Shown here: in pieces, positions 19,469 to 59,743 of the stretch | Layout: every line of letters starts with the position of its first letter | How positions within the stretch are numbered: position 1 is the stretch's first letter | Source: a bacterium | GTDB taxonomy: Bacteria; SZUA-182; DTGQ01 | DNA length: 60,114 nt | Direction of reading: 5' to 3' | Assembly: GCA_023512255.1 (NCBI GenBank) | Contig: JAILZY010000013.1 | Span: 1 to 60,114, forward strand | Program-made: the position numbers and the translations under genes | Notes under the pieces: generated by a model | The model's input: the letters and a program-made list of their open reading frames with translations, nothing else | Told to the model about the DNA's origin: nothing | Databases searched by the model: none

Positions 19469-19482
19469 AGTTGAGGTAAGCT

Positions 19483-31152: not shown

Positions 31153-31182
31153 TGCTTTTTTTATTTAAAATAGGATGGTGGG

Positions 31183-35007: not shown

Positions 35008-35084
35008 TCCTCTTTGGTCGAAAGACTAGGCTGATCTAATCTTTAAAGACTACTAGGCCGATCTAATCTTTAGACTAGATTAGA

Positions 35085-35993: not shown

Positions 35994-36189
35994 TTTCAAA
36001 ATCCCTCTCTTTAGCTAACCTGTAACTTATTGATATAATAAGTAATATTATAATAACTTATCATACTCCTCATGACACTCATCACTTTACCCGTTTGTTT
36101 TTAAAATCTCTTCTCTCTTCTCTATTCACCCTCCTCAAATCACCCTCCTCAAACACTTCTGCTTCTGTCATGGGTAGATACTTAAGCAA

Positions 36190-44066: not shown

Positions 44067-45053
44067 ATGAACCAGCCTGAATTTGTAGCCGAGGTTTCGA
44101 GCAATCATCATCAGGATTTGGCCCGATGCCTGCAATTTGTCGATCGAGCTGCTCAGATTGGATGCAGCACAGTCAAATTTCAGCTTTTCAGAGTCGAAAA
44201 ACTCTTTGCGCCTGAGATTCTGAAGATTAGTTTAAGGCATCGAGCCAGAAAGCAGTGGGAGATTCCCTTATCTTTCATTCCGGCAATTCGGGACAGGTGC
44301 CACCAAAAGGGAATTAGGCTCTCCTGCACTCCCTTTTATCTTGAGGCCGTAGATGAGCTTCTTCCCTACGTCGATGTTTACAAGATCGCCTCCTATGAGC
44401 TTTTATGGACTGATCTTCTCACTGCCTGTGCCCGGAGCGAAAAACCCGTTGTTCTTTCTACCGGCATGGCCACAGTGTCTGAGATCAGGCAAGCTGTGGA
44501 TACGCTGGCCGAGGCAGGATGCCGCGATCTGACCATACTTCATTGTGTCTCGGGCTATCCGACGCCGGTTTCAGATTGCAATCTAGCAGCCATCGGCACG
44601 CTGCGAAAAGAGTTTGCCGCAACAAGGGGGACGGAAATAGGCGGGGAAATAGGAAGCGATGAGCCTAGGCCAACTATCCCGAAATCTCTCCGCACAGAGC
44701 GGGCTAAGATGAGAGTCAGGGTGGGCTGGTCTGATCACAGCCTCAGACCTGCCGTGCTCTATCGGGCCATTCATGCCTGGCAGGCCGAGGTGATTGAATT
44801 TCACCTTGATCTTGACGGCACCGGCGAAGAATTCCCCCTTGGGCATTGCTGGCTTCCAGAGCAGATCGCCGCGGTAATCGAGCAAGTTAGGGAGGGTTTT
44901 AGGGCGGATGGCTCAGGGGTGAAAGAGCCAGCCAGCAGTGAGCTACCAGACCGCAACTGGCGAAGGGACCCTAGGGATGGGCTTCGGCCACTTGAGGAGT
45001 TTCGGCAAAAATGGCTGAGCAGCGTGCAGGCCGAAAACCTTTGTAGGTCGTAA
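44067..45053 (+). CDS. NeuB/PseI-like nonulosonic acid synthase lacking a SAF domain
   Basis: This family condenses phosphoenolpyruvate with a 6-carbon sugar to form a 9-carbon nonulosonic acid. The TIM barrel is clear: AEVSSNHHQDL, STVKFQLF, SCTPFYLEAVD, YKIASYEL, VVLSTGMAT, LHCVSGYPTP and GWSDHS. Two oddities are visible: about 34 extra residues (AATRGTEIGGEIG onward) before GWSDHS, and no C-terminal antifreeze-like (SAF) domain, which normally completes the active site. It may need a partner or act on another substrate. Confidence 0.87.
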   Translation: MNQPEFVAEVSSNHHQDLARCLQFVDRAAQIGCSTVKFQLFRVEKLFAPEILKISLRHRARKQWEIPLSFIPAIRDRCHQKGIRLSCTPFYLEAVDELLPYVDVYKIASYELLWTDLLTACARSEKPVVLSTGMATVSEIRQAVDTLAEAGCRDLTILHCVSGYPTPVSDCNLAAIGTLRKEFAATRGTEIGGEIGSDEPRPTIPKSLRTERAKMRVRVGWSDHSLRPAVLYRAIHAWQAEVIEFHLDLDGTGEEFPLGHCWLPEQIAAVIEQVREGFRADGSGVKEPASSELPDRNWRRDPRDGLRPLEEFRQKWLSSVQAENLCRS

Positions 45054-45172
45054 AGTACGGTGGTCAAAAGCTAGCCAATGGCAGGGAAATGCTCAGATAA
45101 CCTGCTCGGATAACAAGTACGATGATAAGCGCAAAAAAGTACGATAATAAGCAAACTATGAGGATAAGCACA

Positions 45173-46084
45173 ATGGAGAAAGCCTCCCGACTGGCCCTTG
45201 GAACTGCTCAATTGGGGATGGCCTACGGAGTAGCCAATCGCCGGGGGCAGCCATCGCCTGACGAGGCTTGCCAAATTGTCTCTACCGCCCTTGACTGCGG
45301 AGTGAAAATCTTTGATACGGCTCAAAGCTACGGCCAAAGCGAATCGGTCCTGGGCAGATGCTTCCAATCCTTGGGAGTGCGTGGCGGGCAGGTAAAGGTT
45401 ATTTCCAAGCTGGATCCTGAGCTAAACTACCATGACCCATCGTGCTTGCGGGAAAGTGTTCTGGCTTCCCTGGACAGGCTTGGCCTTGATTCGCTCTACG
45501 GCCTGATGCTCCATCGGGCCTCCTGGTTGGCTGAATGGGACAAAGGGCTTGGGGAAAGCCTTGCTGAGCTAAAAAAACAGCGTCTGACTACCTTCTTAGG
45601 GGTTTCGGTCTATACACCGCAGGAAGCCCTCAATGCCCTGGCCATCGAGGGGATTGATTTGATTCAGGCTCCATTCAATATCTTTGATCGTCGACTGCTC
45701 TGCTCCGGGGCGCTTGAGCAAACCCAGGAAAGCGGAAAGCAGCTCTTTGTGCGCAGTATCTTTCTCCAAGGTCTGATCCTTATACCGAAAGAAAGCCTAC
45801 AGGAGCATCTTTCCTTCGCTAGGCCAGCCCTGGCTAGGCTTGAGGCCTTCTGCTCGGAGTATAGGCTAAATCGCCAGGAATTCGCCTTAGGCTATGCCTG
45901 GCAAAGGACAGATGAGGCGGCGGCAATTTTGGTCATTGGAGCTGAAAGCGCAGAGCAGGTCAGAGAGGATATCGAGCTTGTCTTGGAGCGGGCCAGCAGG
46001 CTCGATCCAAGGATATTGGATGCTTGGGATGCTCTTGAGCTTAAGGTCCCGCAAAAGTTGATTCACCCGCCCCTGTGGGGATAA
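45173..46084 (+). CDS. Aldo/keto reductase family protein
   Basis: The 303-residue NADPH-dependent reductase has the AKR barrel: LALGTAQLGMAYGVANRRG, the Asp and Tyr of FDTAQSYGQSE, the Lys of VISKLD and the His of LMLHRAS. All four catalytic residues are present. Similar reductases occur in nonulosonate and spore-coat sugar clusters, where their substrate is unclear. ATG 45173 has AGGA 8 bases upstream; the open frame reaches 45122 through a duplicated AGTACGATAATAAGC stretch. Its last codons overlap a degenerate tandem repeat. Confidence 0.85.
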   Translation: MEKASRLALGTAQLGMAYGVANRRGQPSPDEACQIVSTALDCGVKIFDTAQSYGQSESVLGRCFQSLGVRGGQVKVISKLDPELNYHDPSCLRESVLASLDRLGLDSLYGLMLHRASWLAEWDKGLGESLAELKKQRLTTFLGVSVYTPQEALNALAIEGIDLIQAPFNIFDRRLLCSGALEQTQESGKQLFVRSIFLQGLILIPKESLQEHLSFARPALARLEAFCSEYRLNRQEFALGYAWQRTDEAAAILVIGAESAEQVREDIELVLERASRLDPRILDAWDALELKVPQKLIHPPLWG

Positions 46085-46361: not shown

Positions 46362-47174
46362 ATGAAAACCGTAGCTATTATCCAGGCCCGGATGGGATCG
46401 AGCCGGCTTTTCGGCAAGGTGCTTCGGGATATTCTGGGAAAACCCATGCTCTGGTATATCGTAGAGCGGCTCAGGTCCATAACTGAGATCAATAAGATTA
46501 TCGTGGCCACCTCACAGCATGAGACTGATGAGGCTATCGCCCACTTCTGTCAAGCTCATGGTCTGGCCTGCTTTCGGGGGAGTCAGACCGATGTTCTCGA
46601 CCGCTTCTATCAGGCGGCCAAAAGCGAGCAACCCGAGGCAGTCATTCGGATAACCGGCGACTGTCCGCTCATTGATCCGCAGCTGATCAGAAGGCTGCTG
46701 CTCATGTTTATCGAATCAAACAGCTTTGATCATCTCGGCCTAGCCACTGGGGCCGGTGTGGCCAATGATGAATTTGCCCAGGGGAGATTCCCAGATGGTC
46801 TTGACGCTGAGGTGATCCGCTTCAGTGCCCTTGAGCTGGCCTGGCTGGAAGCCAAAGATCCGCTTGAGCGGGAGCACGTTACCCCATTTATCTGGAAGCA
46901 CCCTGAGCGGTTTCGGGTGGGCTGCCTGGCCAGTGAAAAGGATTTCTCCGCGTTGCGCTTGACGGTTGATAACGGTGAAGACCTTGAGCTGATCAGGGAA
47001 ATCTACCGCGGCCTCTACCATCAAAACCCTTGCTTTGGGCTGGCCGAAGTGGTCGATTATCTGGACCAAAACCCTGCACTTAGGGAGAAAAACGCCCGAT
47101 TTATCGGCCAGGAAGGGTATGAGGCTTTCTGGCCACAGAAGGGAGAAAATTATAAAAAATTTCCAATCAATTAA
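46362..47174 (+). CDS. SpsF/PseF-like cytidylyltransferase
   Basis: The 270-residue protein belongs to the CMP-sugar synthetase-like family (IIQARMGSSRLFGKVL, LRDILGKPMLWYIVERL, RITGDCPLIDP). It probably activates the nonulosonic acid with CTP, the last cytosolic step before transfer to flagellin. The family also includes SpsF of spore coats, so CMP-sugar production is likely but the exact sugar is not shown. It begins just after a run of degenerate repeats. Confidence 0.88.
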   Translation: MKTVAIIQARMGSSRLFGKVLRDILGKPMLWYIVERLRSITEINKIIVATSQHETDEAIAHFCQAHGLACFRGSQTDVLDRFYQAAKSEQPEAVIRITGDCPLIDPQLIRRLLLMFIESNSFDHLGLATGAGVANDEFAQGRFPDGLDAEVIRFSALELAWLEAKDPLEREHVTPFIWKHPERFRVGCLASEKDFSALRLTVDNGEDLELIREIYRGLYHQNPCFGLAEVVDYLDQNPALREKNARFIGQEGYEAFWPQKGENYKKFPIN

Positions 47175-47545: not shown

Positions 47546-48868
47546 ATGGGCAAAGGACAAGAGCTTTATAAAAGAGCAAAAAAACTTATCCCTGGCGGCA
47601 CACAACTGCTGTCTAAAAGACCCGAGATGTTTCTCCCCGATCAGTGGCCAGCTTATTATTCTAGGGCCAAAGGGGTGCAGGTCTGGGACCTTGATGGCCG
47701 CAGCTACACGGACATGAGCATCATGGGCGTTGGAGCCTGCATTCTTGGCTATGCGGATCCGGACGTCGATGCCGCGGCTCACCGGGCCATTGATTGCGGC
47801 ACGCAGTGCACGCTCAACTGCCCTGAGGAGGTAGAGCTGGCCGAGCTGCTTCTTGAGCTTCACCCTTGGGCTGAGATGGTCCGCTATGCCCGCACGGGAG
47901 GCGAGGCTGCGGCCATAGCCATTCGACTTGCTCGCGGGGCCACAGGCAGGGACAAGGTGGCTATCTGCGGCTATCATGGCTGGCATGACTGGTATCTGGC
48001 GGCCAACCTTGGCGATGGCTCAGCCCTTGATGCGCAACTTCTCCCTGGGCTTGAGCCGGCAGGAGTGCCAAGGGCACTAAGAGGCTCAGCTCTCACCTTC
48101 CCCTACGGGGATAGGGAAAGCTTTGAGCGGCTGGCGGCCGAACATGGCCAGTCTCTTGCGGCTATTATCATGGAGCCTGCCCGCGGGCATGAGGCTTCGC
48201 TGGATTTTTTGAAAGGCATTCGGGCAAAAGCTCAGCAGCTTGGTGCAGTTTTGATCTTCGATGAAATCACCTCCGGCTTTAGGATGTGCTGCGGCGGGAT
48301 TCATCTGCGGTATGGAGTTGAGCCTGATCTGGCTGTTTTCGCCAAGTCAATGAGTAACGGCTATCCAATGGCTGCTGTTGTGGGGCGGCGAGAGGTCATG
48401 GAGGTAGCTCAAAGAAGCTTCATCAGCAGTACGAACTGGACCGAGCGCATCGGCCCAGCCGCGGCCCTAGCCACGATTCGCAAATATCGCCGCTGTCAGG
48501 TCGATGAGCATATTATCCATATTGGTAGCCAAATGCAGAGCCTGTGGTGGAATCTATCCGATGAAACTGGCCTTGCCATCCGGGTTGGCGGCCTGCCTAC
48601 GCTGAGCCATTTTGAGATCAAGGGGGTTGAGGGAAATGACCCGCTGGCTCTTCGGACCCTGTTTACTCAACTTATGCTGGAGCGTGGGTATCTGGCCTGG
48701 TGCCAGTTCAAGCCAAGCTATGCCCACAGGCAGGAGCACCTTGCGGCCTACAGAATTTCCTGCCGCGAGGTCTTTGCCATTATTCATCGGGCTATCGAGC
48801 AAAGAACCGTAGCCAAGATGCTGAAAGGGCCGATCAGCCACGCCGGATTCAGACGCCTAGTGAGCTAA
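47546..48868 (+). CDS. Class III aminotransferase, glutamate-1-semialdehyde aminomutase-like
   Basis: The 440-residue PLP enzyme resembles glutamate-1-semialdehyde 2,1-aminomutase (IPGGTQLLSKRPEMF, YARTGGEAAAIAIRLAR, YHGWHDWYLA, IFDEITSGFR) with the PLP lysine in FAKSMSNGYP. In a sugar cluster it is more likely a sugar or keto-acid aminotransferase than a haem enzyme. It lies between the cytidylyltransferase and PseG genes, with repeat elements on both sides. Its stop codon TAA coincides with the edge of the next repeat. The substrate is not known. Confidence 0.85.
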   Translation: MGKGQELYKRAKKLIPGGTQLLSKRPEMFLPDQWPAYYSRAKGVQVWDLDGRSYTDMSIMGVGACILGYADPDVDAAAHRAIDCGTQCTLNCPEEVELAELLLELHPWAEMVRYARTGGEAAAIAIRLARGATGRDKVAICGYHGWHDWYLAANLGDGSALDAQLLPGLEPAGVPRALRGSALTFPYGDRESFERLAAEHGQSLAAIIMEPARGHEASLDFLKGIRAKAQQLGAVLIFDEITSGFRMCCGGIHLRYGVEPDLAVFAKSMSNGYPMAAVVGRREVMEVAQRSFISSTNWTERIGPAAALATIRKYRRCQVDEHIIHIGSQMQSLWWNLSDETGLAIRVGGLPTLSHFEIKGVEGNDPLALRTLFTQLMLERGYLAWCQFKPSYAHRQEHLAAYRISCREVFAIIHRAIEQRTVAKMLKGPISHAGFRRLVS

Positions 48869-49128: not shown

Positions 49129-50373
49129 TTGAGCAGAAAATCTGTTTTGATTCGCTGCGATGGGGCATCTGAGATCGGCCTTGGCCACCTGGTCCGCTGT
49201 CTGGCCCTGGCTGATGAATTTAGCCGAAGGCATAATATTTGTGCTGCCTTTGCCATGCGCCACTCTCCCCTAGCCTTTGAGATGGTGCGACAGAGAGGGT
49301 ATAGGGTTTTTACCCCGCAAGAGCAGAATGGCCTTGCTACTGGCTTGAAGCCAATGGCTGGAAACACTTTTGCCCCGCAAGACCCGCAAGAGCAGAACGG
49401 CCAGGATAGCCAAGATAGCCAGCCCAGATGTTCTCCATTAGCGGGGGTGAATAAAAACACTACCCTTCCCACATCCTTCACGTTGAGAGAGGGGGATAGG
49501 AGAAACATCTGTGGCCATCAGCGGCAGCCGGATGCCCTTGCCTTTGGCCGCTGGCTTGAGGAAGCAATCAGCCAGATCAATGCTGGAGCCCTAATCTTGG
49601 ATGTGCGGGATGAGCTGCCTGGGCAAGTAGTCAATGAGCTGCGCCAGCAGGGAATAGTGACCGTAGTCCTGGATGATCCGAGCGAGCGAAGGCTCTATGC
49701 AGACCTAGCCTTCTATCCGCCGGTGCCTCAGGTGCAGCGCCTTGATTGGAGCGGATTCTGCGGCCAGGTATATATAGGCTGGGAGTGGGTGGTGCTGCGG
49801 CCCGAAATCGCTCACTATCTGCCGCGGCCACATTCCCCATCTCATCGTCCGCATCCTCTGGTGCTAGTAACCATGGGCGGAAGCGACCCTTGTGGGCTGA
49901 CCCTCCTGGCCGCTCGTGGGCTTGATCTTCTGACTGAAGAGTTTGAAACCGTTTTGGCTCTAGGACCAGCCTTTAAGCAGCGGGAGGCCCTCGAGACCCT
50001 GCTCTCTAGAGCGCGGCGCAAAATGGCCGTGCAATGGCCAGGCGATAAGCTTTTTGACCTAATGGAGCAGGCTGATCTAGCCATCGTTTCATTCGGAGTT
50101 ACGGCCTATGAGCTGGCTGCCCTGGGTGTGCCGGCTATTTACTTGTGCCTAACCAAAGACCATGCTGAATCAGCCAAAGCGCTGGTCGAGGCTGGCTTTG
50201 GCCAAAGCTTGGGCCTATTCAGCCAAGTGAGCGAGAACGCGCTGGCTGAGGCAGTCAGGGAATTTTTAACCGCAAAAGCTGCCGGCAAGACCACGACAAC
50301 AGCCGCTCGGCGCCTGATTGATGGCCGGGGAGCTGAGAGAGTCGCTCGGCTGGTGGCTGAGAGGCTCTGCTGA
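49129..50373 (+). CDS. pseG: PseG-like UDP-sugar hydrolase with internal insertion
   Basis: PseG removes UDP from UDP-2,4-diacetamido-2,4,6-trideoxy-beta-L-altrose, the substrate of PseI. The GT-B-like protein has IRCDGASEIGLGHLVRCLALA at the start (split here as two motifs), LVTMGGSDPCGLT and the late SFGVTAYELAALGVP. Family members are about 300 residues or a little longer; this one has 414 because residues of about 62-130 are a low-complexity insert with repeats such as PQEQNG and QDSQDSQ. Start TTG 49129 has TGGAG 10 bases upstream. Confidence 0.87.
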   Translation: MSRKSVLIRCDGASEIGLGHLVRCLALADEFSRRHNICAAFAMRHSPLAFEMVRQRGYRVFTPQEQNGLATGLKPMAGNTFAPQDPQEQNGQDSQDSQPRCSPLAGVNKNTTLPTSFTLREGDRRNICGHQRQPDALAFGRWLEEAISQINAGALILDVRDELPGQVVNELRQQGIVTVVLDDPSERRLYADLAFYPPVPQVQRLDWSGFCGQVYIGWEWVVLRPEIAHYLPRPHSPSHRPHPLVLVTMGGSDPCGLTLLAARGLDLLTEEFETVLALGPAFKQREALETLLSRARRKMAVQWPGDKLFDLMEQADLAIVSFGVTAYELAALGVPAIYLCLTKDHAESAKALVEAGFGQSLGLFSQVSENALAEAVREFLTAKAAGKTTTTAARRLIDGRGAERVARLVAERLC

Positions 50374-50388
50374 GGGGGCGGGTATTGC

Positions 50389-51372
50389 ATGAGCGTAGGG
50401 GAGGATTCAATGTCCGCTGAAGTGAGCAGATCTACAAGGCCTGCTGAGCTTCGTGAGTGGCAGGAGCATAAGGGGCCGATGCTTGATACCATCAATGGTT
50501 TTGAAGTGATTAACTGCCAAAGATGCGGATTCAGCCACATCCTGCCGATCCCAACGACTGAGGAGCTTGAGCGCATCTATCGCCAGGAATACTATACAGT
50601 GGAAAAGCCACACTATCTTGAGCGGCACAGGGAGGACCTTGACTGGTGGAATCTAGTCTATGAAAGACGCTATAGGCTGTTTGAAAAATTACTGCCACCT
50701 CACCGAAGGCGTATCCTGGATGTAGGCTCAGGTCCTGGCTTCTTTTTACTCTATGGCCAACAGCGGGGCTGGGAGACGCTTGGAATTGAGCCTTCAGCTC
50801 AGGCCGCAGCCGCAAGCCGCCAGATGGGACTTAAGATTATCGAAGGGTTTCTGGACCGCTCCATCTTTGAGCAGCCTGCCACCCGAAGCCTTCTTGCCAG
50901 GTTCGATGTAGTTCATCTTCAGGAGGTTTTAGAGCATATCCCCGATCCTGTCGGTATGCTAGAGCTCATCTACAACCACCTCCTAAATCCCGGTGGATTG
51001 TTGTGCGTGGTTGTGCCGAATGATTATAATCCCCTCCAGGAGATTCTTTCTAAGTTTCTGAATTATCAGCCCTGGTGGTTAGCTCCGCCGCACCACATCA
51101 ACTATTTTTGCTTCGAGTCTGTGGAGCGCTGCATCCGAGCCGCGGGTTTCACTCCCCTCCACCTGGAAGCGACCTTCCCGATGGAGATCTTTCTCCTGAT
51201 GGGAGAAAACTACGTAGGAAATGATCCTGTTGGCCGAAGGGTACATGGGATGAGAAAATCTCTTGAGCTTAACCTTGCAGCCGCAGGGGCCGAGGAGCTA
51301 TTATCTGAATTCTATTCGGCTTTGGCCAGCCGCGGCCTTGGCCGTGAGTGCCTGGTGGTGGCAGCCCGCTAG
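50389..51372 (+). CDS. Class I SAM-dependent methyltransferase
   Basis: The 327-residue protein has a short N-terminal CxxC motif (NCQRCGFSHILP), a linker and a methyltransferase domain: motif I ILDVGSGPGFFL, an acidic LGIEPS, and LQEVLEHIPDP with LLNPGGLLCVVVPN. This arrangement is typical of methyltransferases in glycan clusters that modify sugars or chain ends. ATG 50410 has a better ribosome site (GGGGAGG, 5-base spacing) than ATG 50389. The target is unknown. Confidence 0.87.
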   Translation: MSVGEDSMSAEVSRSTRPAELREWQEHKGPMLDTINGFEVINCQRCGFSHILPIPTTEELERIYRQEYYTVEKPHYLERHREDLDWWNLVYERRYRLFEKLLPPHRRRILDVGSGPGFFLLYGQQRGWETLGIEPSAQAAAASRQMGLKIIEGFLDRSIFEQPATRSLLARFDVVHLQEVLEHIPDPVGMLELIYNHLLNPGGLLCVVVPNDYNPLQEILSKFLNYQPWWLAPPHHINYFCFESVERCIRAAGFTPLHLEATFPMEIFLLMGENYVGNDPVGRRVHGMRKSLELNLAAAGAEELLSEFYSALASRGLGRECLVVAAR

Positions 51373-51430: not shown

Positions 51431-52306
51431 ATGAGCTTGAAGACCCAACCCTTTTTCATTGTTTCCAGTGGCCGCTCAGGTACCCAGATGATGGAAAAGC
51501 TCTTGAGCGTTTTCCCTGAGGTTGAAATCTACCATGAATACCTGTGTACCCATGTACAACCATTAGCGGTGCGATATTACATGGGACTGGCTTCACTCGA
51601 TGAAGTATGTGAAAATCTAGCCAGACTCCACGGCCGCGCTGTCTACTATAGCCCCTGTAGGCTATGGGGAGATTCATCAAACAAACTGTCCTGGCTTATC
51701 GAAGGGCTAAATATCCTTTTCCCAACCGCTAAGTTCATCCACCTAGTGCGTGATGGGCGAAAAGTTGTCAGCTCTTTTTATCACAAACTCGCTGCCGAGT
51801 GTTATGATGACCGCAGCACCGCTATTCTTCAGGCCTATGTGGACGACCCTGTCAGGCATCCGGCTCCGCCGCCTGAAAAAAAATACTGGTGGAATCTTCC
51901 CCGCCCCGGCAGCCCTCTGGCTGAAGATTTCCGCCGCTATAGTCAATTTGAGCGAATATGTTTCCACTGGGGTGAGGTCAATCGGTTCATCCTGGATAAA
52001 CTCAAACTGATCGACCCTAGTCGAAAGCGTACTTACAAGCTCGAAAATCTGGTTTCAGATCGCAGGTGGCTGGCCGATATGCTGGATTTTTTGGATCTTC
52101 CTTATCAGGATGAGCTGTTTAACATGCTAAAGCGGCCCCACAACGTCAACGTACCAGAAGATCACCTGCTGACCGAGGAGCAGAAAAGTACTCTTATGGC
52201 TATAGCCGGCGACATGATGCGCTATTTTGGCTATGACCAGACTGAAGAGTACCGGATGGTCTATGAAAACAAACCGCCGCACCACAGCCCTGGGGGTGAA
52301 TCGTAG
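51431..52306 (+). CDS. Sulfotransferase family protein
   Basis: The 291-residue protein has both PAPS-binding motifs: SSGRSGTQMMEKLL (5'-phosphosulfate loop) at residues 12-25 and FIHLVRDGRKVVSSF (3'-phosphate site) near 97. It would move sulfate from PAPS to a hydroxyl or amino group, probably of a sugar in this cluster. Sulfation in a nonulosonate cluster is uncommon. No PAPS synthesis gene is in the window. Confidence 0.85.
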   Translation: MSLKTQPFFIVSSGRSGTQMMEKLLSVFPEVEIYHEYLCTHVQPLAVRYYMGLASLDEVCENLARLHGRAVYYSPCRLWGDSSNKLSWLIEGLNILFPTAKFIHLVRDGRKVVSSFYHKLAAECYDDRSTAILQAYVDDPVRHPAPPPEKKYWWNLPRPGSPLAEDFRRYSQFERICFHWGEVNRFILDKLKLIDPSRKRTYKLENLVSDRRWLADMLDFLDLPYQDELFNMLKRPHNVNVPEDHLLTEEQKSTLMAIAGDMMRYFGYDQTEEYRMVYENKPPHHSPGGES

Positions 52307-52360
52307 CCGGCTTTGATATGAGCTTTGATATTATTTGATTTGATAAGAGGAGCAATGGTT

Positions 52361-53575
52361 ATGGAGAGCAAAGAGAGAAGCTCATCTTGCGATCTATGCG
52401 GCAGCAGTAAACTGAGACCTGTATATCAGCCAACAAAGAGTGTGCGGGGGCTGACGGTTTTCTTGTGTCAAGAATGCGGTCTGGTCCAGAGCCTGCCTCG
52501 TATTGATCATGTCGCTTCAAGGCAAGTGAGAGTATCGGCAGGTGCAGACTGGGGGAATATCCGCTATGGCAAGGGATTCAGAGCACAGAAGGCTCTTAGG
52601 CTTTTAGCCGCAGTCTGTGATCTTAAAACCATCGGCCACTGTCTGGATGTGGGAGCTAACCGTGGCTCTTTTGCCCTCCTCCTCCATGAGATTGCTCCCT
52701 GGGTCAGGATATTGGCGGTTGAGCCTGACACTAAGGTTGTTACTAACTGGGTACATACTTCTGGAATTGAACCTATTCTTGAGCGCATCGAGCAAGTAGC
52801 CCTGCCCAAAGAGCAATTCGATCTTGTTCATTGCAGTCATACTCTGGAACATCTAGGCTCACCCCACAAGACCCTGATTCAGCTAAAAGAGGCGATGAAA
52901 CCAGAAGCTGTTTTGTTGATCGAGGTTCCTAACCTAAATTTCATTGGCCGCAGCGATGTAGTGGAAGAGTGGTTTATAGATAAACATCTCTATCATTTTT
53001 CTCTACAAACACTTCATGAATATCTGCGGCTAACAGGCTTTCGGGTGGTTGATACCCTGATTGATGAAGAAGATATTACGGTTATTGCTCGGCGAGTCGA
53101 ATCTGAAATCGACAGCCTCTGCCAAGCAGGTCAAAAGCATAACCTAATATCGGCCAGCTTTGATTTGATCAGACAGTATCAGGCCACTATCCAAGCAAAC
53201 CGGATGGCCCTGAAGCAGACCGTGCGATTTATCCATGAGCAAGCACGGTCTAAGCGGGTGGTCATATGGGGTGCAGGCCGAATTTTTGATAGCCTGGTAG
53301 AGTATGGTCAACTTCGGGCATCTCTGCTGGCAGGAGTTGTGGATAAGTACCTGGTCGATTTTGTGGATACGGTTCATGGCTGTCCCCTACTGAGTCCGGT
53401 AAAACTGCCAGAGCTTGCCCCTGATCTGGTCATTATTGCTTCGCGCAGCTTCTTCGAAGAGATAAAAAAAGAGCTTTTAACCCTGTATCCTGGCTGTAGT
53501 CTTCTTAGCCTTGACGACCTTCTGGTCACTTCACTAAGGAGCCCCGAAAAGCAGATGGGGATGTTGAGGAGATGA
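52361..53575 (+). CDS. C-methyltransferase-like protein with zinc motif
   Basis: The protein of about 405 residues has an N-terminal zinc-binding-like motif (CDLCGSSKL ... LCQECGLVQSLP), a SAM domain (HCLDVGANRGSFALL, VHCSHTLEHLGSP, LLIEVPNLNF) and a C-terminal Rossmann-like domain (VVIWGAGRIFDSLVEYG). This three-part plan is that of sugar C-methyltransferases such as TylCIII-type enzymes. ATG 52361 has AGGAG 8 bases upstream. It ends 4 bases before a transketolase gene, so the two are in one operon. Confidence 0.85.
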   Translation: MESKERSSSCDLCGSSKLRPVYQPTKSVRGLTVFLCQECGLVQSLPRIDHVASRQVRVSAGADWGNIRYGKGFRAQKALRLLAAVCDLKTIGHCLDVGANRGSFALLLHEIAPWVRILAVEPDTKVVTNWVHTSGIEPILERIEQVALPKEQFDLVHCSHTLEHLGSPHKTLIQLKEAMKPEAVLLIEVPNLNFIGRSDVVEEWFIDKHLYHFSLQTLHEYLRLTGFRVVDTLIDEEDITVIARRVESEIDSLCQAGQKHNLISASFDLIRQYQATIQANRMALKQTVRFIHEQARSKRVVIWGAGRIFDSLVEYGQLRASLLAGVVDKYLVDFVDTVHGCPLLSPVKLPELAPDLVIIASRSFFEEIKKELLTLYPGCSLLSLDDLLVTSLRSPEKQMGMLRR

Positions 53576-53579
53576 GCTT

Positions 53580-54419
53580 ATGGACAAAGATGAAAAAGAG
53601 CAACTTGAGCGGCTAGCAGCCGAGCTGAGAAAGTATATCGTGATTATGAACTGTTATGCAGGCTCAGGGCATCCAGGGGGAGCCCTTTCGGCGGCTGATA
53701 TCGTAGCCTATCTGTTCCATAAGGAACTCAATTTTTCTCCAGCTAACTACCAGGATCCTAATCGAGACCGATTCATTCTATCAAAAGGGCACTCCTGCAT
53801 GGTCTTATATGCTGCCCTAGCCCAGAAGGGATTTTTCAGCACTGAAGAATTCAAGAAATTACGCCGCATAGATGGCATGCTGCAAGGGCATCCAGACCGC
53901 CTGAAGACGCCAGGGGTGGAGTTTAGCTCTGGCTCTCTGGGGCAGGGGTTTTCCTTTGCCCTAGGGGTAGCTTTGGGAGGAAAGCGGGCTGGCCTCGACT
54001 TTCGGGTCTATGTCCTGCTAGGTGATGGAGAACTTAATGAAGGCCAGGTTTGGGAAGGGTTTATGTTCGGTGCCCACTATCGGCTGGATAATCTGGTGGC
54101 GATCATAGATTACAATAAATTCCAGAGCGACGATTTGACCAGCAATATCACCTCTCTTGAGCCTTTGCACGATAAGCTGGCCTCATTCGGCTGGCAGGTA
54201 GTGGAAATCAATGGCCATGATTTTCTAGACCTTGAGCAGGCCTTCTCCCAGGCCCGCAAGACCAAGGGTAAGCCATCGGTTATCGTGGCCCATACGGTCA
54301 AGGGAAAGGGAATTTCATTTATGGAAAACAATCCGAAGTGGCACGGCAGCCTGGCTCCTGTGGGGGCGGAAAGACACCGTGCCTTGCGGGAGTGCGGCTG
54401 TGAGGACCTTAGGCTATGA
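53580..54419 (+). CDS. Transketolase, N-terminal subunit, copy 2
   Basis: This 279-residue half of a second split transketolase binds the pyrophosphate of TPP: SGHPGGALSAAD, LSKGHSCMVLYA, GDGELNEGQVWEG and IIDYNKFQ. It is clearly related to the copy at 18638 but differs in many residues. Its place between a C-methyltransferase and an SDR suggests a task in sugar synthesis for the glycan, for example adding a two-carbon unit. This role is inference. Confidence 0.92.
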   Translation: MDKDEKEQLERLAAELRKYIVIMNCYAGSGHPGGALSAADIVAYLFHKELNFSPANYQDPNRDRFILSKGHSCMVLYAALAQKGFFSTEEFKKLRRIDGMLQGHPDRLKTPGVEFSSGSLGQGFSFALGVALGGKRAGLDFRVYVLLGDGELNEGQVWEGFMFGAHYRLDNLVAIIDYNKFQSDDLTSNITSLEPLHDKLASFGWQVVEINGHDFLDLEQAFSQARKTKGKPSVIVAHTVKGKGISFMENNPKWHGSLAPVGAERHRALRECGCEDLRL

Positions 54420-55381
54420 AAACCATGAGGGAGGCCTTTGGTTTGGCTTTAGCCGAATTAGCCAAGAGCAGAGATGATTTTGTGGTCTTGGATGCTGATG
54501 TAGCAGGAGGAACTGGCACTCATATTTTCCGTGAAGCCTTTCCTGACCGTTTTATCCAGTGCGGAATAGCCGAGCAAAACATGATGTCTGTGGCTGCTGG
54601 ATTATCCACGACTGGAGTGCTGCCCATCGTTACCTGCTATGCGGTCTTTGCCTCCTTGCGGGCTATTGAGCAGGTGAGGAACTCAATTGCCTATCCTCGG
54701 TTTAATGTCAAGATTGCCGCCAGCCACTTGGGACTAGATGTCGGCCCGGATGGCCCTACGCATCAGGCCATTGAGGATCTTGCTGTGTATCGTAGCATTC
54801 CCAATATTACCATTGTCTCACCGGCTGATCCTGTTGAATTGTACAAAGCCTTGCCTGTGGTCCTCGACCACGATGGGCCAGTGTATCTTCGGACCGGTAG
54901 AAGCCCACTGCCGACCATTTTTGACGATAGGCTGTCTTTTGAATTGGGTAAGGGCAAAATTATCAGGGAAGGCCGGGATGTAACCATCATTGCCGTCGGG
55001 GTCATGGTTCATCGGGCGATTGAGGCGGCTGATAAGTTGCAGAAGGAAGGCATATCCTGCCGGCTAATCAATATGTCTACTGTAAAACCGATTGATCGAG
55101 AGCTTATCGTCGAGTCAGCGGCTAGAGCCGGCTGTCTGGTAACAGCCGAGGATCACAATATCATCGGCGGGCTTGGAAGTGCTGTGGCCGAAGTCCTGGC
55201 TGAGACCATACCGGTGCCTATGGAGCGGGTAGGTATAAGAGACCTTTTTGCCGAGTCGGCAGATCCGAATGATCTAGCCCGCAAATACCACCTTCTGCCA
55301 GATGATATTGTGCTGGCGGCTCGATCGGTTTTGAGAAGGAAAAAAAATGAGCGAACGACAGGTGAAGGCACTGGAAAATAA
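54416..55381 (+). CDS. Transketolase, C-terminal subunit, copy 2
   Basis: The 321-residue half supplies the catalytic glutamate (CGIAEQNM) and the C-terminal domain (TVKPIDRELI, EDHNIIGGLGSAVAEVLAE). The start overlaps the previous stop (ATGA), so the subunits are made together. The next gene starts inside its last 35 bases. Confidence 0.92.
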   Translation: MKTMREAFGLALAELAKSRDDFVVLDADVAGGTGTHIFREAFPDRFIQCGIAEQNMMSVAAGLSTTGVLPIVTCYAVFASLRAIEQVRNSIAYPRFNVKIAASHLGLDVGPDGPTHQAIEDLAVYRSIPNITIVSPADPVELYKALPVVLDHDGPVYLRTGRSPLPTIFDDRLSFELGKGKIIREGRDVTIIAVGVMVHRAIEAADKLQKEGISCRLINMSTVKPIDRELIVESAARAGCLVTAEDHNIIGGLGSAVAEVLAETIPVPMERVGIRDLFAESADPNDLARKYHLLPDDIVLAARSVLRRKKNERTTGEGTGK

Positions 55382-56111
55382 GGTTGCCCTGGTAACCGGA
55401 GGAAGTAGAGGGATTGGCCGAGCCATCTGCCTTGCCCTGGCCAGAGAAGGAGCATCTGTGGCCTTAACCTGCCAAAGCAGGCTGGATGCAGCCAAGCTGG
55501 TGGCCGAGGAAATCAATAACCTGGGAGGCAGGGCTTTGTCTCTCCTTATGGAGGTTACAAACAGAGAATCGGTCAGGGCCGCTATCCAGGCAACCGAGCA
55601 GACCTTTGGTGGCCTTGATATCCTGGTTAACAATGCCGGAATTAACAAACCAGCCGATTTTGATCAGATCACGGATGCAGACTGGGACGAGATTCTAGCC
55701 GTAAACCTAAAAGGGCCGTTTATCTGCTCTCAGGAGGCCATCCCTGCATTACGCCGCCGCGGGGGTGGCAGCATCATCAATATCGGCTCAGTTAGCGGGC
55801 AGTACGGCGGGCCAAGAACAGCCCACTATGCAGCCAGCAAGGCTGGCCTTATCTCGCTCGGGCAAGTCATCGCCCGCTTCGGAGCCAGGGATAATATCCG
55901 CTGCAATACGGTAGCGGCCGGTCTGATCGCCTCACCCATGGCTACATCTGCTATGCAAGCTGGCTCTGTGAGCCGGATTGCTGAAAATATCCTACTTGGG
56001 CGGCTTGGCACACCAGAAGAGGTGGCCAAGGTGGTGGTGTTTTTGGCCTCTGAGGCCAGCAGCTACATAACTGCTCAGACAATCAACGTCAATGGAGGGC
56101 TCTACTTTTGA
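55347..56111 (+). CDS. Short-chain dehydrogenase/reductase (FabG-like)
   Basis: The 254-residue classical SDR has the cofactor motif TGGSRGIGRA, the NNAG motif, catalytic Ser in INIGSVSG, and YAASK with the catalytic Tyr and Lys. It resembles 3-oxoacyl-ACP reductases but sits in a glycan operon, overlapping the transketolase gene by 35 bases, so it more likely reduces or oxidises a sugar intermediate. Confidence 0.88.
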   Translation: MSERQVKALENKVALVTGGSRGIGRAICLALAREGASVALTCQSRLDAAKLVAEEINNLGGRALSLLMEVTNRESVRAAIQATEQTFGGLDILVNNAGINKPADFDQITDADWDEILAVNLKGPFICSQEAIPALRRRGGGSIINIGSVSGQYGGPRTAHYAASKAGLISLGQVIARFGARDNIRCNTVAAGLIASPMATSAMQAGSVSRIAENILLGRLGTPEEVAKVVVFLASEASSYITAQTINVNGGLYF

Positions 56112-57412
56112 GACCGAAAACCACTCTGCCATTCCACCACCTTTCTACAGCGAAAGAGAAAAAAACCGAGGCAAGAGCGCTGCTCATCATCAGCGGTGGC
56201 CTTGAAGCTGTGCCTGGCATTATCCGAGCCAAACAGATGGGGCTCTATGTTGTGGTCAGCGACCAAAATCCTGAGGCGCCTGGTTTTGCTTTGGCTGACG
56301 ATCATATAATTGCCAGCACTTACGATCTTGAGGCCACAGTTGCTGCTGCCTGGCACTATCAGCGGACAGTGCGGCCTATTGATGGAGTGATCACCATTGC
56401 CGCAGATGTTCCGCTCACCGTAGCCAGCGTGGCCGAGCAGCTAGGCTTGCCTGGCATTAGCCTTGAGTCAGCGCGACTGGCTTCAGATAAGCTGGCCATG
56501 AAGCAAAAATTTGCCGCCGATGGGGTGCCGATCCCATGGTTTTCTCCTGTTGACTCAAGCGAGCATCTTCGCCAAATTGTGGCCGAGCAAGGGTTTCCCC
56601 TGGTGCTAAAGCCTGTTGATAGCCGGGGAGCTCGCGGGGTACTGCGGCTTGTTGGGCCAGATATTGATCTTGACTGGGCCTATCAGCTCTCTCGCAGCTT
56701 TTCTCCAACCGGCCGGGTCATGGTTGAGCGATTTTTGCCCGGGCCGCAGGTCAGCACCGAGTCTATCATGATCGATGGCCTAGCCTATACCCCCGGCTTT
56801 TCTGATCGAAACTATGAATACCTTGATCGCTATGCACCCTATATCATAGAAAACGGAGGAGATCTGCCAAGCAGACTCCCTGATCAAATCCAGCAGGCTG
56901 TTCGTGAGCTGGTGCAGCAGGCCGCTCTCAGCCTTGGCATTACCCAAGGAGTGGTCAAGGGCGATATCGTGGTCTTTGAAGGCCAGCCAAGAGTAATCGA
57001 GCTAGCCGCTCGGCTAAGCGGAGGGTATTTTTGCACCCATGAAATCCCATTAAATACTGGTGTTGATCTAGTTGGCCAAGCAATCCGTCTGGCGCTGGGG
57101 GAAAAACCTGAACCATCATCGCTCATCCCACGCTTTCAGCGCGGGGTGGCCCAGCGCTATCTAATGCCTGAGCCTGGTCGGGTGGTCCGCATCTCGGGAG
57201 TCGATGAGGTTAGCCGATGGCCTGACATTGCCCTGTGCGAGATTAGGGTCAAGGTCGGCGATCTTGTCAGGCCAATCACCAACCATCCAGCCCGAGCAGG
57301 GGTGGTTATCGCCACTGCAGAACACCGCCAGCAGGCTATTGACCGGGCAGTCGAGGCTATCGGTTGCCTAAAGATTGATACCGTGCCAGTTGTAGAATCT
57401 CCCCCTAAGTAG
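56108..57412 (+). CDS. ATP-grasp family ligase
   Basis: The 434-residue protein has a pre-ATP-grasp domain (LLIISGGLEAVPGIIRAKQMG, broken here into its Rossmann-like start, and LADDHIIASTYD) and an ATP-grasp core (KQKFAADGVPIPWF, FPLVLKPVDSRGARGV, VMVERFLPGPQVSTESIMIDG, and VIELAARLSGGYF). Such enzymes join a carboxylate to an amine or other nucleophile with ATP. Start TTG 56108 overlaps the SDR stop and has GGAGGG 9 bases upstream. The substrates are unknown; linking an amino acid to a sugar is one possibility. Confidence 0.87.
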   Translation: MRPKTTLPFHHLSTAKEKKTEARALLIISGGLEAVPGIIRAKQMGLYVVVSDQNPEAPGFALADDHIIASTYDLEATVAAAWHYQRTVRPIDGVITIAADVPLTVASVAEQLGLPGISLESARLASDKLAMKQKFAADGVPIPWFSPVDSSEHLRQIVAEQGFPLVLKPVDSRGARGVLRLVGPDIDLDWAYQLSRSFSPTGRVMVERFLPGPQVSTESIMIDGLAYTPGFSDRNYEYLDRYAPYIIENGGDLPSRLPDQIQQAVRELVQQAALSLGITQGVVKGDIVVFEGQPRVIELAARLSGGYFCTHEIPLNTGVDLVGQAIRLALGEKPEPSSLIPRFQRGVAQRYLMPEPGRVVRISGVDEVSRWPDIALCEIRVKVGDLVRPITNHPARAGVVIATAEHRQQAIDRAVEAIGCLKIDTVPVVESPPK

Positions 57413-57700: not shown

Positions 57701-59743
57701 ATGGCTAGCCCTATTCTTTTTATCTACGCGGTCTTTCATCTCAACCTGGCTTACTCCTCGATTGAGGAGGAGGAGCGCCGCAAGGTGCTAGAGCGCTGCT
57801 ACTGGCCGCTGCTGCACCTTGTCCGTAAATATAGCCTGCCGTTTGGCATAGAGGCCACAGGCTATACCCTGGAGGTAGCCGCTGACCTTGACCCTGCCTG
57901 GCTGGATGAGCTCAAGGCCCTGACGAGCAGCCGCCGCGGCCCTGGCGAATTTATCGGCAGTGGCTATGCCCAGCTTATTGGTCCGCTGGTGCCAGCTTGG
58001 GTAAATGCAGCTAACCTGCGCCTTGGACATCAGACTTACCAGCGACTTTTAGGCCAAAAGCCCCAGATCGCCCTGGTCAATGAGCAGGCCTACTCTGCCG
58101 GGCTGATCGGCCACTACCTTGATGCTGGCTATCGAGCCATAATCATGGAATGGGATAATCCAGCCTCCTGCCACCCTGACTGGAACCCCAACTGGCGATA
58201 CCTGCCTCAGATTGCCTGTGGACAAGAGGGGCGGGAAATCCCTCTCATCTGGAATAAGTCGATCGCTTTCCAGAAGTTCCAGCGCTATGCCCACGGTGAT
58301 CTAGACCTTTCAGACTACCTCAACTACCTTAGCAAACACCTAGCAGACCAGCCCCGAGCTTTTCCGCTCTATGGCAATGATGTTGAAATTTTTGACTTTC
58401 GACCGGGCAGATATCATACTGAGGCTCCTCTTAGCCAGACGGAGAGCGAATGGGAGCGGCTTGCCCAGCTCTTTGAATGCCTTTTAGCTGACGGACGCAT
58501 CCAATTTATCAAACCCAGCCAAGTACTTGAGATGATGCCGCTGGCCGGTGCGGGCAATCGGCTGCGCCTTGAGTCCCCTGAGCAGCCGGCTCCAGTCAAA
58601 AAGCAGGGCAAGTATAACCTTACCCGCTGGGCAGTTACAGGGCGGGATGATCTTAGGATCAATACGGTCTGCTGGCGTATCTATGAGGCGCTGCGGGAAA
58701 ATCTAGCTACAGCTTCTGACGATGAGTGGCGAGAGCTTTGCTTTTTGTGGAGCAGTGATTTTCGCACCCACATAACTGAAAAGCGCTGGGCCGCTTATCG
58801 AGACAAACTGCAAGGCTTTGCCGAAAAAGTTAGAGCCGCAGAGGAGAAGCGAAAAGAAACCTCTCCTTTGGAAAAGAAAAACCTACACTTTCACCACCAA
58901 GGCTATCAGCCCGCGGCCAGCAGCAGGGTCGAGCACACCGGCCGCTACCTGCTAGTTGAGACAGACACCCTGGTGCTGAAACTAAATATTCGCCGAGGGC
59001 TTGCCTTTGACGGGCTGTGGTTTAAGGAAGTATCAGACCGGCCGCTTGTGGGCACGCTGCCTCACGGATACTATGATGACATCAGTCTGGGGGCTGATTT
59101 CTATACTGGCCACCTAGTGCTGGAAGCTCCTGGCCAGCCCAAGATAGCTGATCTCAATCCGGTCGATCCTCTGATTGAACAAAGCGAGCTGGGAATTGAA
59201 ATAAGTGCAGAGGTCGGCACTCCCCTAGGGCTGGTTAAAAAGCGCATCCTGGTTTACCGCAAGGCCCCCATGGTAGCGCTTGAGTACCGCCTAGCTTGGA
59301 AGAGCCTCCCTTCAGGCTCTCTTCGGCTGGGACACATCACCCTGAATCCAGAAGCCTTTGAGCGCTCTTCGCTCTTCTTTCGTACTCATAACGGTGGCTT
59401 TGAATGGGAGCGGTTCAACCTAACTGAAGCAGCAGGCGGTTTCGATCACGGAAGGCCAGTCTCATTTCTGGTTTCAGCCAGCCAGGGGCTTGGCCTTACC
59501 GAAGGGGTGATAGAGCTTGGGGACAGCCAAAGGTCTCTGCTGATCGAAGTAGACAAGATAGCCGCAGCTCTGATCGGTCTGATTACCTATCGACCGGTCG
59601 GCCAAAGCTACTTTTATCGTCTAAGCCTATCGGCTAGGGAGATGGATGAAACACGCTCAGAGGAAGAGCGGCCTGGGACAAGAGAGGTTATTTCAGCCTT
59701 CAGACTCAGGATAAGGGCAGGCTGTGCCCCCTCTTCAGGATAG
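57701..59743 (+). CDS. Glycoside hydrolase family 57-like protein
   Basis: The 680-residue protein resembles GH57 enzymes, which act on alpha-glucans or galactosides by a retaining mechanism. Visible parts: VFHLNLAYSSIEEEER in the region-1 position, GSGYAQLIGPLVP (region 2), IALVNEQAYSAG with the likely nucleophile Glu (region 3), and PLYGNDVEIFDFRPGR (region 4). The C-terminal third is a beta-rich domain (VETDTLVLKLNIRRG onward). The usual HQP of region 1 reads HLN. No signal peptide is seen, so it should be cytoplasmic. It ends the glycan cluster. Confidence 0.8.
   Translation: MASPILFIYAVFHLNLAYSSIEEEERRKVLERCYWPLLHLVRKYSLPFGIEATGYTLEVAADLDPAWLDELKALTSSRRGPGEFIGSGYAQLIGPLVPAWVNAANLRLGHQTYQRLLGQKPQIALVNEQAYSAGLIGHYLDAGYRAIIMEWDNPASCHPDWNPNWRYLPQIACGQEGREIPLIWNKSIAFQKFQRYAHGDLDLSDYLNYLSKHLADQPRAFPLYGNDVEIFDFRPGRYHTEAPLSQTESEWERLAQLFECLLADGRIQFIKPSQVLEMMPLAGAGNRLRLESPEQPAPVKKQGKYNLTRWAVTGRDDLRINTVCWRIYEALRENLATASDDEWRELCFLWSSDFRTHITEKRWAAYRDKLQGFAEKVRAAEEKRKETSPLEKKNLHFHHQGYQPAASSRVEHTGRYLLVETDTLVLKLNIRRGLAFDGLWFKEVSDRPLVGTLPHGYYDDISLGADFYTGHLVLEAPGQPKIADLNPVDPLIEQSELGIEISAEVGTPLGLVKKRILVYRKAPMVALEYRLAWKSLPSGSLRLGHITLNPEAFERSSLFFRTHNGGFEWERFNLTEAAGGFDHGRPVSFLVSASQGLGLTEGVIELGDSQRSLLIEVDKIAAALIGLITYRPVGQSYFYRLSLSAREMDETRSEEERPGTREVISAFRLRIRAGCAPSSG

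Follow-up and report, generated by a model that had tools for sequence, protein, structure and literature searches.

What does a second transketolase do inside a glycan gene cluster? The question is raised by a 60,114-nucleotide stretch of bacterial DNA (contig JAILZY010000013.1 of assembly GCA_023512255.1, GTDB lineage SZUA-182; hereafter the window), in which a transketolase split over two genes, here called TK2, occupies positions 53580-55381. A preliminary description of this DNA had placed TK2 in a glycan operon and suggested that, starting from a nucleotide-sugar aldehyde, it forms a ketose or else a sugar with a branched or lengthened chain. Our comparison of gene order, phylogeny, active-site residues and recurrent partners upholds a specialised role in the glycan, and the nucleotide-sugar chemistry is less well supported. 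With moderate confidence, we propose that TK2 would be a dedicated split transketolase of a pseudaminic-type flagellin-glycan pathway, where it builds an acyl side chain by ketol transfer, reduction and amide ligation.

The presence of a split transketolase at this position inside a glycan operon is borne out by open reading frames (ORFs) and Pfam domains (Table 1). The two ORFs overlap by 4 bases, and in the Protein Data Bank both halves find their best match in Carboxydothermus hydrogenoformans, whose transketolase is likewise encoded by split genes (6yaj/6yak; E 4.7e-101 and 1.2e-84). The two enzymes are alike in consisting of two chains and in their catalytic residues, and they differ at one position, where the Carboxydothermus enzyme has a serine and TK2 has Gly32. 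According to PMC7661550, that organism has no other transketolase. The catalytic motifs are retained in TK2, as originally described, with the aligned glutamate (E53 of TK2-C), R5, H104, D112 and R162 all present. We rejected an assignment as 1-deoxy-D-xylulose-5-phosphate synthase (DXS) or as the E1 component of pyruvate dehydrogenase or another 2-oxoacid dehydrogenase, since transketolase models score higher on both halves (TK2-N: Transketolase_N 179 bits, DXP_synthase_N 46, E1_dh 36; TK2-C: NCBIfam transketolase 292, dxs 200). Adjacent N and C chains, the expected domains and the retained catalytic residues thus identify TK2 as a split-gene transketolase, for which ketol transfer by an alpha2-beta2 enzyme is predicted. 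The reported coupling to flanking genes was likewise seen: the C-methyltransferase ORF ends at 53575, leaving a 4-base gap before TK2-N, and the ORF of a short-chain dehydrogenase/reductase (SDR) starts at 55347, overlapping the end of TK2-C by 35 bases. An ATP-grasp ORF then starts at 56108 with a 4-base overlap with the SDR.

A second split pair, TK1, was confirmed at 18638-20448, and it is necessary to decide which copy is the housekeeping enzyme. TK2 might be an ordinary housekeeping duplicate that came to lie in the glycan locus by chance: both pairs are split transketolases, their C halves are 49% identical, and TK1 also keeps the residues aligned with the catalytic glutamate, R5, H104, D112 and R162. 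TK1 is preceded by MazG and KhpA/B-type genes and followed by an ABC-ATPase gene (FtsE-like by position) and FtsX, and in a relative from the same genus it adjoins the same kind of genes, as read from their translations. The genome that contains the window (96.6% complete) encodes three Transket_pyr proteins, namely TK1, TK2 and a 661-aa ORF on contig C122 that is a DXS (TIGR00204 873.6 bits, cut-off 465.95); since these amount to two split pairs and a DXS, the Transket_pyr search found no full-length transketolase in this genome. A TK1-type transketolase is present here and in all eight relatives from the phylum that we examined. Eight of these nine genomes contribute sequences to the tree, where they group as a single clade (Shimodaira-Hasegawa-like, SH-like, support 0.943), and at the locus from the ninth (G003, L008) a C half alone is found, 75% identical to TK1. 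TK1 falls inside this clade and TK2 outside it, so that, judged from the tree, the TK1 lineage is the phylum's housekeeping transketolase. The phylogeny of the two pairs, which the preliminary description had called for, shows neither a housekeeping cluster copy nor plain duplicates; TK1 and TK2 are not sisters, and the tree led us to reject TK2 as a housekeeping duplicate.

Relatives of TK2 were collected with a TK2-C scan of a public genome collection at the DNA level, from which we took the best 80 of 489 loci encoding a relative, and with whole-genome and plasmid searches, which supplied further loci. Gene content was read by six-frame tblastn, longer-frame ORF picking having misread several GC-rich loci, and trees were built with FastTree. 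The transketolases of the TK2 kind (module transketolases) comprise 19 tips from the window and 16 other loci. Twelve of them form one clade in a first tree of 88 pairs (SH-like support 0.994), and all 19 do so in an enlarged tree of 96 pairs (0.998), apart from 74 other split transketolases. Two full-length transketolases (L026, L027) and the second pair of L248, which lies outside the clade, were left out of the residue counts given below; L071 and G003, with no N half found at their loci, are not in the tree. The members nearest to the host come from the same genus (L114; 83% identity in the C half) and the same order (L141). Others come from Desulfobacterota, from an Alphaproteobacterium (L046, so named from its record title) with its nearest tree neighbour from the same phylum (L137), and from a metagenome-assembled genome (MAG) of Bacteroidetes (L039). 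L038 and L143 each carry two transketolase pairs of the clade. One member is known from a cultured organism, Solidesulfovibrio carbinolicus DSM 3852, on plasmid pDCAR1 (L248), where one strand encodes, in order, pseF, an acylneuraminate cytidylyltransferase, a methyltransferase, FabG, TK-N, TK-C, a methyltransferase, an ATP-grasp protein, a glycoside hydrolase, PseB and PseC, with a divergent NeuB gene just upstream of this run. The second pair on pDCAR1 (L248 21134-22883) has an annotated C half and an N half seen via tblastn only. A locus whose record is titled Candidatus Nitrosopelagicus (L053, 6991-10930) has its clade member as one fused, full-length chain, divergent from adjacent SDR and ATP-grasp genes and near nucleotide-sugar genes, and lacks a GH57-like gene.

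Within this clade, the partners of TK2 recur. SDR and ATP-grasp genes are found in 15 of the 16 further module loci and a GH57-like gene in 14, and the order transketolase-SDR-ATP-grasp-GH57 is kept in 13 (in L143 with an extra gene between the first two). The exception in gene content on all three counts is L034, a 6-kb contig that has none of these partners. PseB, PseC or NeuB matches lie within the stretch of 10 of the 16 loci (two weak, L035 and L053), and a flagellin within that of 8. Among the best 80 of 489 loci, an ATP-grasp gene accompanies 8 of the 10 with glycine at TK2 position 32 and none of the 70 without it (p = 1.6e-9, a guide only, since related loci were treated as independent). 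The two glycine loci without ATP-grasp are L034 and L071, and the L071 genome carries SDR and ATP-grasp genes on another short contig. The recurrence of these partners across loci led us to reject a chance co-location of TK2 with glycan genes. A survey of genomic neighbourhoods, also proposed in the preliminary description, thus finds the TK2 clade together with SDR, ATP-grasp, GH57-like and glycan genes in other phyla. With TK1 and TK2 in separate clades, and TK2 keeping the same company elsewhere, an ordinary duplicate placed here by accident is very improbable. The cluster copy is the specialised one and probably does not serve central metabolism, as had been suggested: its clade stands apart and is regularly accompanied by glycan genes, while the copy at 18.6 kb groups with the transketolases of the other members of the phylum.

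The active site of the module transketolases retains the catalytic residues and differs around them. In TK2-C numbering, R5, E53, H104, D112 and R162 are kept in all 19 module transketolases. Position 32 is glycine in 17 and alanine in 2, the latter being the second pairs of L038 and L143; in the 74 other split transketolases it is serine in 64, alanine in 9 and proline in 1. Further residues that mark the clade, identified after the clade had been chosen from the tree, are G31 (19/19 versus 5/74), D108 (18/19 versus 0/74), P111 (17/19 versus 6/74) and S163 (18/19 versus 2/74), and TK2-C carries the module signature DADVAGGTG and VGPDG. In the alignment, the counterpart of position 32 in the 6ha3 chain is Ser345, numbered by our own count. 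We take 6ha3 to be human transketolase, in which Ser345 presumably contacts the substrate phosphate and corresponds to Ser385 of the E. coli enzyme; the equivalents of R5 and R162 are likewise assumed to bind substrate phosphate in other transketolases. S385 of E. coli transketolase lies at the active-site entrance, and changes there alter acceptor use, as stated in PMC10787763. The loss of the Ser345 equivalent beside retained catalytic residues fits a changed substrate. It does not prove a loss of phosphate binding, because both arginines remain.

These residues bear on another possibility, that TK2 locally supplies an ordinary phosphorylated precursor, such as a pentulose, tetrose or heptulose phosphate, with its chemistry unchanged. 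The invariance of R5, H104, D112 and R162 in all 19 module transketolases is what such an enzyme would show; yet TK1 is already encoded in this genome, with its lineage in eight relatives from the phylum, and in the module clade the Ser345 equivalent is lost and other residues close to it in the chain are likewise peculiar to the clade. We therefore consider local supply of a standard precursor improbable.

TK2 lies in a run of plus-strand genes from PseB at 41799 through the GH57-like gene ending at 59743. The enzymes of the Campylobacter/Helicobacter pseudaminic pathway are PseB, PseC, PseH, PseG, PseI and PseF. The window resembles this pathway in that its PseB and PseC score over the model cut-offs and that PseG-, NeuB- and PseF-like genes are present; the PseG, PseI (151.7 bits, cut-off 340.25) and PseF models all score below their cut-offs. 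It differs in the missing PseH match and in its extra module of transketolase, SDR, ATP-grasp and GH57-like genes. The PseH model has no match in the window's own genome. Across 23 genomes with such clusters it is never matched over the cut-off of 93.1, and weak matches occur in 16; control genomes give weak matches in 13 of 14 and one over the cut-off. The genes for flagellin, FliS and a Maf-like protein lie at least 29 kb upstream of the glycan cluster in the same window. From these family assignments, the flagellin is the likely glycan acceptor and the Maf-like protein the likely flagellin glycosyltransferase, and the locus is probably a nonulosonic-acid cluster of the pseudaminic type, serving flagellin. 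The term glycan operon therefore holds as far as a glycan cluster goes, and can be made more exact: a pseudaminic-type nonulosonic-acid cluster with a flagellin gene in the same window.

Table 1. Coordinates of TK2, TK1 and the glycan and flagellin genes of the window.
Feature	Position	Strand	Basis
TK2 N half	53580..54419	+	279 aa; PF00456 Transketolase_N E 1.3e-52; thiamine-diphosphate binding domain
TK2 C half	54416..55381	+	321 aa; PF02779 Transket_pyr E 1.3e-45, PF02780 Transketolase_C E 2.3e-36
TK1 split transketolase pair, housekeeping (for comparison only)	18638-19468 and 19483-20448	+	domain search; groups with the phylum's transketolases
PseB, UDP-GlcNAc 4,6-dehydratase (inverting)	41799..42836	+	TIGR03589 495.1 bits, cut-off 407.75
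PseC transaminase	42775..44031	+	TIGR03588 463.2 bits, cut-off 423.5
NeuB/PseI-like nonulosonate synthase	44067..45053	+	PF03102 E 6.2e-53; below NeuB and PseI equivalog cut-offs
Aldo/keto reductase	45122..46084	+	PF00248 E 8e-27
PseF-like cytidylyltransferase	46362..47174	+	PF02348 E 4.1e-36; TIGR03584 28.4 bits, cut-off 205.7
Class-III (GSA-type) aminotransferase	47546..48868	+	PF00202 E 3.7e-39; PRK06209 267.2 bits, cut-off 486
PseG-like UDP-sugar hydrolase	49129..50373	+	TIGR03590 E 3.6e-34, 118.6 bits, cut-off 153.55
S-adenosylmethionine (SAM) methyltransferase MT1	50389..51372	+	PF13489 E 2.8e-21
Sulfotransferase-family protein	51431..52306	+	PF13469 E 7.1e-13
SAM methyltransferase with C-methyltransferase C-terminal domain	52325..53575	+	PF13489 E 4.4e-19, PF08484 E 2.6e-05
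FabG-like SDR	55347..56111	+	PF13561 E 2.8e-63
ATP-grasp ligase with L-amino-acid-ligase C-terminal domain	56108..57412	+	PF18603 E 1.2e-18, PF02786
GH57/GH38-like protein	57701..59743	+	PF03065 E 9.1e-14
Flagellin	7547..9178	+	PF00669 E 3.3e-21, PF00700 E 1.4e-15
FliS	9323-9691		within the window, between flagellin and Maf-like gene
Maf/MptE-like protein with TPR repeats, 984 aa	9734..12688	+	PF01973 E 3.7e-37; PF20157 Maf N-terminal 20.8 bits, below cut-off 23.5

Some of these neighbours deserve closer description. MT1 recurs in sister clusters, with copies 46-77% identical in L114, L141, L036 and L248. The closest solved structure to the ATP-grasp protein is the L-amino acid ligase 3vot; its TTG start, judged from the alignment, is probably placed about 20 codons too early. 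The AlphaFold model of the GH57-like protein (mean pLDDT 85.8) matches GH57 4-alpha-glucanotransferase and GH38 mannosidases in a fold search. Its E128 and D227 are invariant in 12 of 12 aligned sequences and, we assume, are the kind of positions held by the GH57 catalytic pair. As an observation in its own right, this protein is a regular ATP-grasp partner in flagellin-glycan loci of several phyla, with its catalytic pair apparently intact.

A further comparison is offered by the sfm genes of Shewanella oneidensis. According to PMC3765264, which also summarises the Campylobacter/Helicobacter pseudaminic pathway, sfmABCDE encode a NeuB, an IlvB-type thiamine enzyme (581 aa), a FabG-type SDR, a methyltransferase and an ATP-grasp protein. 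As described there, deletion of sfmA-D brings flagellin down to its unmodified size, and deletion of sfmE gives a slightly smaller shift. The flagellin glycan is given as most probably a pseudaminic acid with one N-acetyl group (274 Da), which bears in addition a group of 236, 250 or 264 Da that is free of nitrogen. A Maf gene lies upstream of sfm, no clear PseH orthologue is reported, and clear orthologues of PseG, PseI and PseF are stated to be missing. Subtraction of the ion formulae printed in that paper gives C9H16O7 for the 236-Da group, a composition that would fit a saturated polyhydroxy acid in amide linkage and equally a sugar. Compared by gene list, the window shares with sfm a NeuB-type synthase, a thiamine enzyme, an SDR, a SAM methyltransferase and an ATP-grasp protein, as well as the link to flagellin and a Maf-type transferase, here at least 29 kb from the cluster. 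The two systems differ in that the thiamine enzyme is IlvB-type in Shewanella and a split transketolase in the window, and in that the five sfm genes include no GH57-like gene, while the window has PseG-, PseI- and PseF-related genes.

In the pathway that we favour, TK2 would take a two-carbon ketol unit from a ketose and add it to an aldehyde acid (an omega-oxo acid) that bears no phosphate, so that a hydroxy-keto acid is formed, as its family and gene context suggest. The aldehyde acid itself might, speculatively, come from an aminotransferase or a reductase encoded in the cluster, the class-III aminotransferase being a candidate. The SDR, regularly adjacent to the transketolase, would reduce the ketone made by TK2, and the product may be methylated by one of the two methyltransferases. 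ATP-grasp ligases of this kind couple carboxylates to amines. From this family and from the lack of a PseH hit, the ligase of the cluster is predicted to link the acid, through an amide bond, to the amine that is left free where PseH would acetylate; this amine would be at position 4 of the PseC product or at position 7 of the completed sugar. Finally, the Maf-like protein would place the finished sugar on flagellin, as expected of its family. We prefer an acyl side chain on an amine to a change in the sugar skeleton because the module pairs the transketolase with an SDR and a carboxylate-amine ATP-grasp ligase, PseH gives no hit in this genome, and the Shewanella sfm glycan bears its nitrogen-free group on a pseudaminic acid with a single acetyl. 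All substrates and reaction steps of this pathway are proposals that we infer from genes, order, clade, residues and partners.

Background of several kinds bears on this proposal. Split transketolases with non-central roles are known from rifamycin (rif15A/rif15B) and apulose (AptA/AptB) pathways, whose gene context differs from that of TK2. The flagellar sugar of Treponema denticola is reported to be a nonulosonic acid with a 2-methoxy-4,5,6-trihydroxyhexanoyl group. A 4,5,6-triol end of this kind would presumably arise if a ketol unit were added to succinic or malic semialdehyde and the product were then reduced. A transketolase of Thermotoga maritima converts galacturonic acid and hydroxypyruvate into 7-keto-octuronic acid, according to PMC8317047; this is a precedent for ketol extension of an aldehyde acid, but with a full-length enzyme, in in-vitro biocatalysis and in no glycan pathway. 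Our search of the open-licence literature, with subscription papers outside it, found no account of a transketolase in nonulosonic-acid or flagellin-glycan synthesis; transketolase is a gene for multilocus sequence typing in PMC539331 and is listed under the pentose phosphate pathway in PMC12342839.

It is also conceivable that TK2 acts on the sugar itself, with the aldehyde of a nucleotide sugar or a nonulosonate gaining or giving up a ketol unit, so that a ketose, a branched sugar or one with an extended chain results, as the preliminary description had it. Branched-sugar pathways have an SDR and a C-methyltransferase, and both adjoin TK2. A transketolase also accepts free sugars as acceptors, as seen in PMC8317047. 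On the other hand, the regular ATP-grasp partner requires both a carboxylate and an amine, the pse genes suffice for the C9 sugar without any transketolase, and the ligase is also found with DXS-family or Ppd-like enzymes in the place of the transketolase, or with none. On balance, we judge sugar-skeleton chemistry unlikely, though less so than the supply of an ordinary precursor.

Further surveys were anchored on the partner genes. In the phylum of L036 (a MAG of Desulfotignum, Desulfobacterota), a GH57-like bait found matches in 19 of 395 genomes. A transketolase is present in 7 of these 19 loci (L035, L036, L038, L143, L175, L176, L187) and a DXS-family gene in one (L185); four of the seven were already in the transketolase scan, and the 15 newly found loci contributed 3 with a transketolase and 1 with DXS. 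An ATP-grasp gene is present in 16 of the 19 and flagellin in 13, and an SDR in all 8 loci with a transketolase or DXS-family gene versus 5 of the 11 others. The same bait found matches in 3 of 394 genomes of the order of G369, presumably gammaproteobacterial: two loci with a DXS-family gene (L136, L188) and one cut short. L136 adjoins genes that, judged from their translations, are probably flrABC and fliEFG. L039 has a DXS-family gene in addition to its transketolase. In L136 and L039, the DXS-family proteins score above the dxs cut-off (488.6 and 535.6 bits versus 465.95) and below the DXS of the window's genome (873.6); they could be ordinary DXS genes. An ATP-grasp bait, with which up to four candidates were scored per genome, so that some can be missed, gave 5 matches in 398 genomes of the phylum of L046, including L135. 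In L135 (10750-13939), the transketolase and SDR are replaced by a second NeuB, an iron alcohol dehydrogenase and a Ppd-like thiamine enzyme divided between two short ORFs, with flagellin adjacent; one half of the Ppd-like enzyme was identified by Pfam, and the other is a putative assignment. In the order of G369, searched in the same manner, no IlvB-type sfm-like locus was recognised (6 of 7 weaker matches checked by tblastn, 5 also by ORF list). The thiamine enzyme thus seems to vary while ATP-grasp and GH57-like genes recur, and the SDR goes with transketolase or DXS.

ATP-grasp relatives are also common around Treponema lecithinolyticum: of the 118 genomes of its family, 112 have one, often within a longer protein. 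Queries for transketolase, DXS and Ppd had no match in 14 neighbourhoods from that family, which speaks neither for nor against the side-chain route. Separately, a cytidylyltransferase-like match lies near the ATP-grasp gene in 7 of 14 stretches from this family (L228-L241), and in L139 and L140 as well; L139 encodes a 902-aa protein with cytidylyltransferase and methyltransferase domains. In L141 (G004, contig C271, 4012-6443), two tandem genes upstream of the transketolase module are 25-26% similar to ATP-grasp, one with ATP-grasp and LAL_C2 domains and the other without a Pfam match.

Several observations weigh against the acyl side-chain proposal or narrow it. The best weak PseH matches, at 69.6 and 69.1 bits (cut-off 93.1; G1033 and G659, both with a DXS-family locus), could be divergent PseH enzymes. 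The likeness of the ATP-grasp protein to SfmE is one of family and gene list. In all 19 module transketolases the phosphate-type arginines R5 and R162 are kept, so phosphorylated substrates are conceivable. Of the Desulfobacterota GH57 loci, 11 of 19 lack a thiamine enzyme of the kinds searched, two of them (L173, L186) being cut by contig ends; the others mean that the ATP-grasp ligase can occur without a transketolase. L034 and L071 have a module-type C half with the partners not in view, and L071 also has no N half. The order in L248 is SDR-transketolase-methyltransferase-ATP-grasp-GH57, where the SDR precedes the transketolase and a methyltransferase stands between transketolase and ligase. 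As to the acceptor, G004 (same order, L141) has the whole module and no flagellin match, and the record title of L053 names an archaeon, so the glycan may have targets besides flagellin.

Elsewhere in the window, the glycan cluster is closely preceded by two tandem and very similar M20 peptidase genes that are encoded on the minus strand (38124-39491 and 39885-41264). Also on the minus strand, an ORF at 35080-35999 has a low-complexity, repetitive C-terminal half rich in proline, alanine and threonine, with a second long ORF in another frame of the same stretch. At 29701-34886, SelA and SelB genes come before the gene of a B12-binding radical SAM protein, which overlaps them by 4 bases; comparable radical SAM proteins adjoin the transketolase module in L034, L036, L037, L038 and L114.

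Taken further, the surveys raise the possibility, which we advance tentatively, of a widespread modular N-acyl side-chain route for flagellar nonulosonic acids, in which a variable thiamine enzyme forming C-C bonds, an SDR (where the thiamine enzyme is a transketolase or DXS-family) and a recurrent ATP-grasp ligase replace acetylation by PseH. The place of the thiamine enzyme, taken by a split transketolase, a DXS-family enzyme, a Ppd-like enzyme with a second NeuB or the IlvB-like enzyme of Shewanella, would add two-carbon units to an aldehyde acid and so give a polyhydroxy or deoxy acid. If this is true, TK2 would be the first transketolase known in flagellar glycan side-chain synthesis, and the loci with two transketolase pairs (L038, L143) would add two units. 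The parts of such a system are already known; their combination, a transketolase version of an Sfm-kind system, is new to the open-licence literature searched. PMC3765264 describes the outer group of Shewanella flagellin as unsolved and assigns no reactions to the sfm enzymes, and the conserved transketolase version points to a chemistry in which a ketol unit is transferred, the product reduced and an amide formed. A TK2-type module is accessible in a cultured organism, Solidesulfovibrio carbinolicus DSM 3852 (plasmid pDCAR1). Our results also carry a warning for genome annotation, in that split transketolases of this kind should not be annotated as central metabolism.

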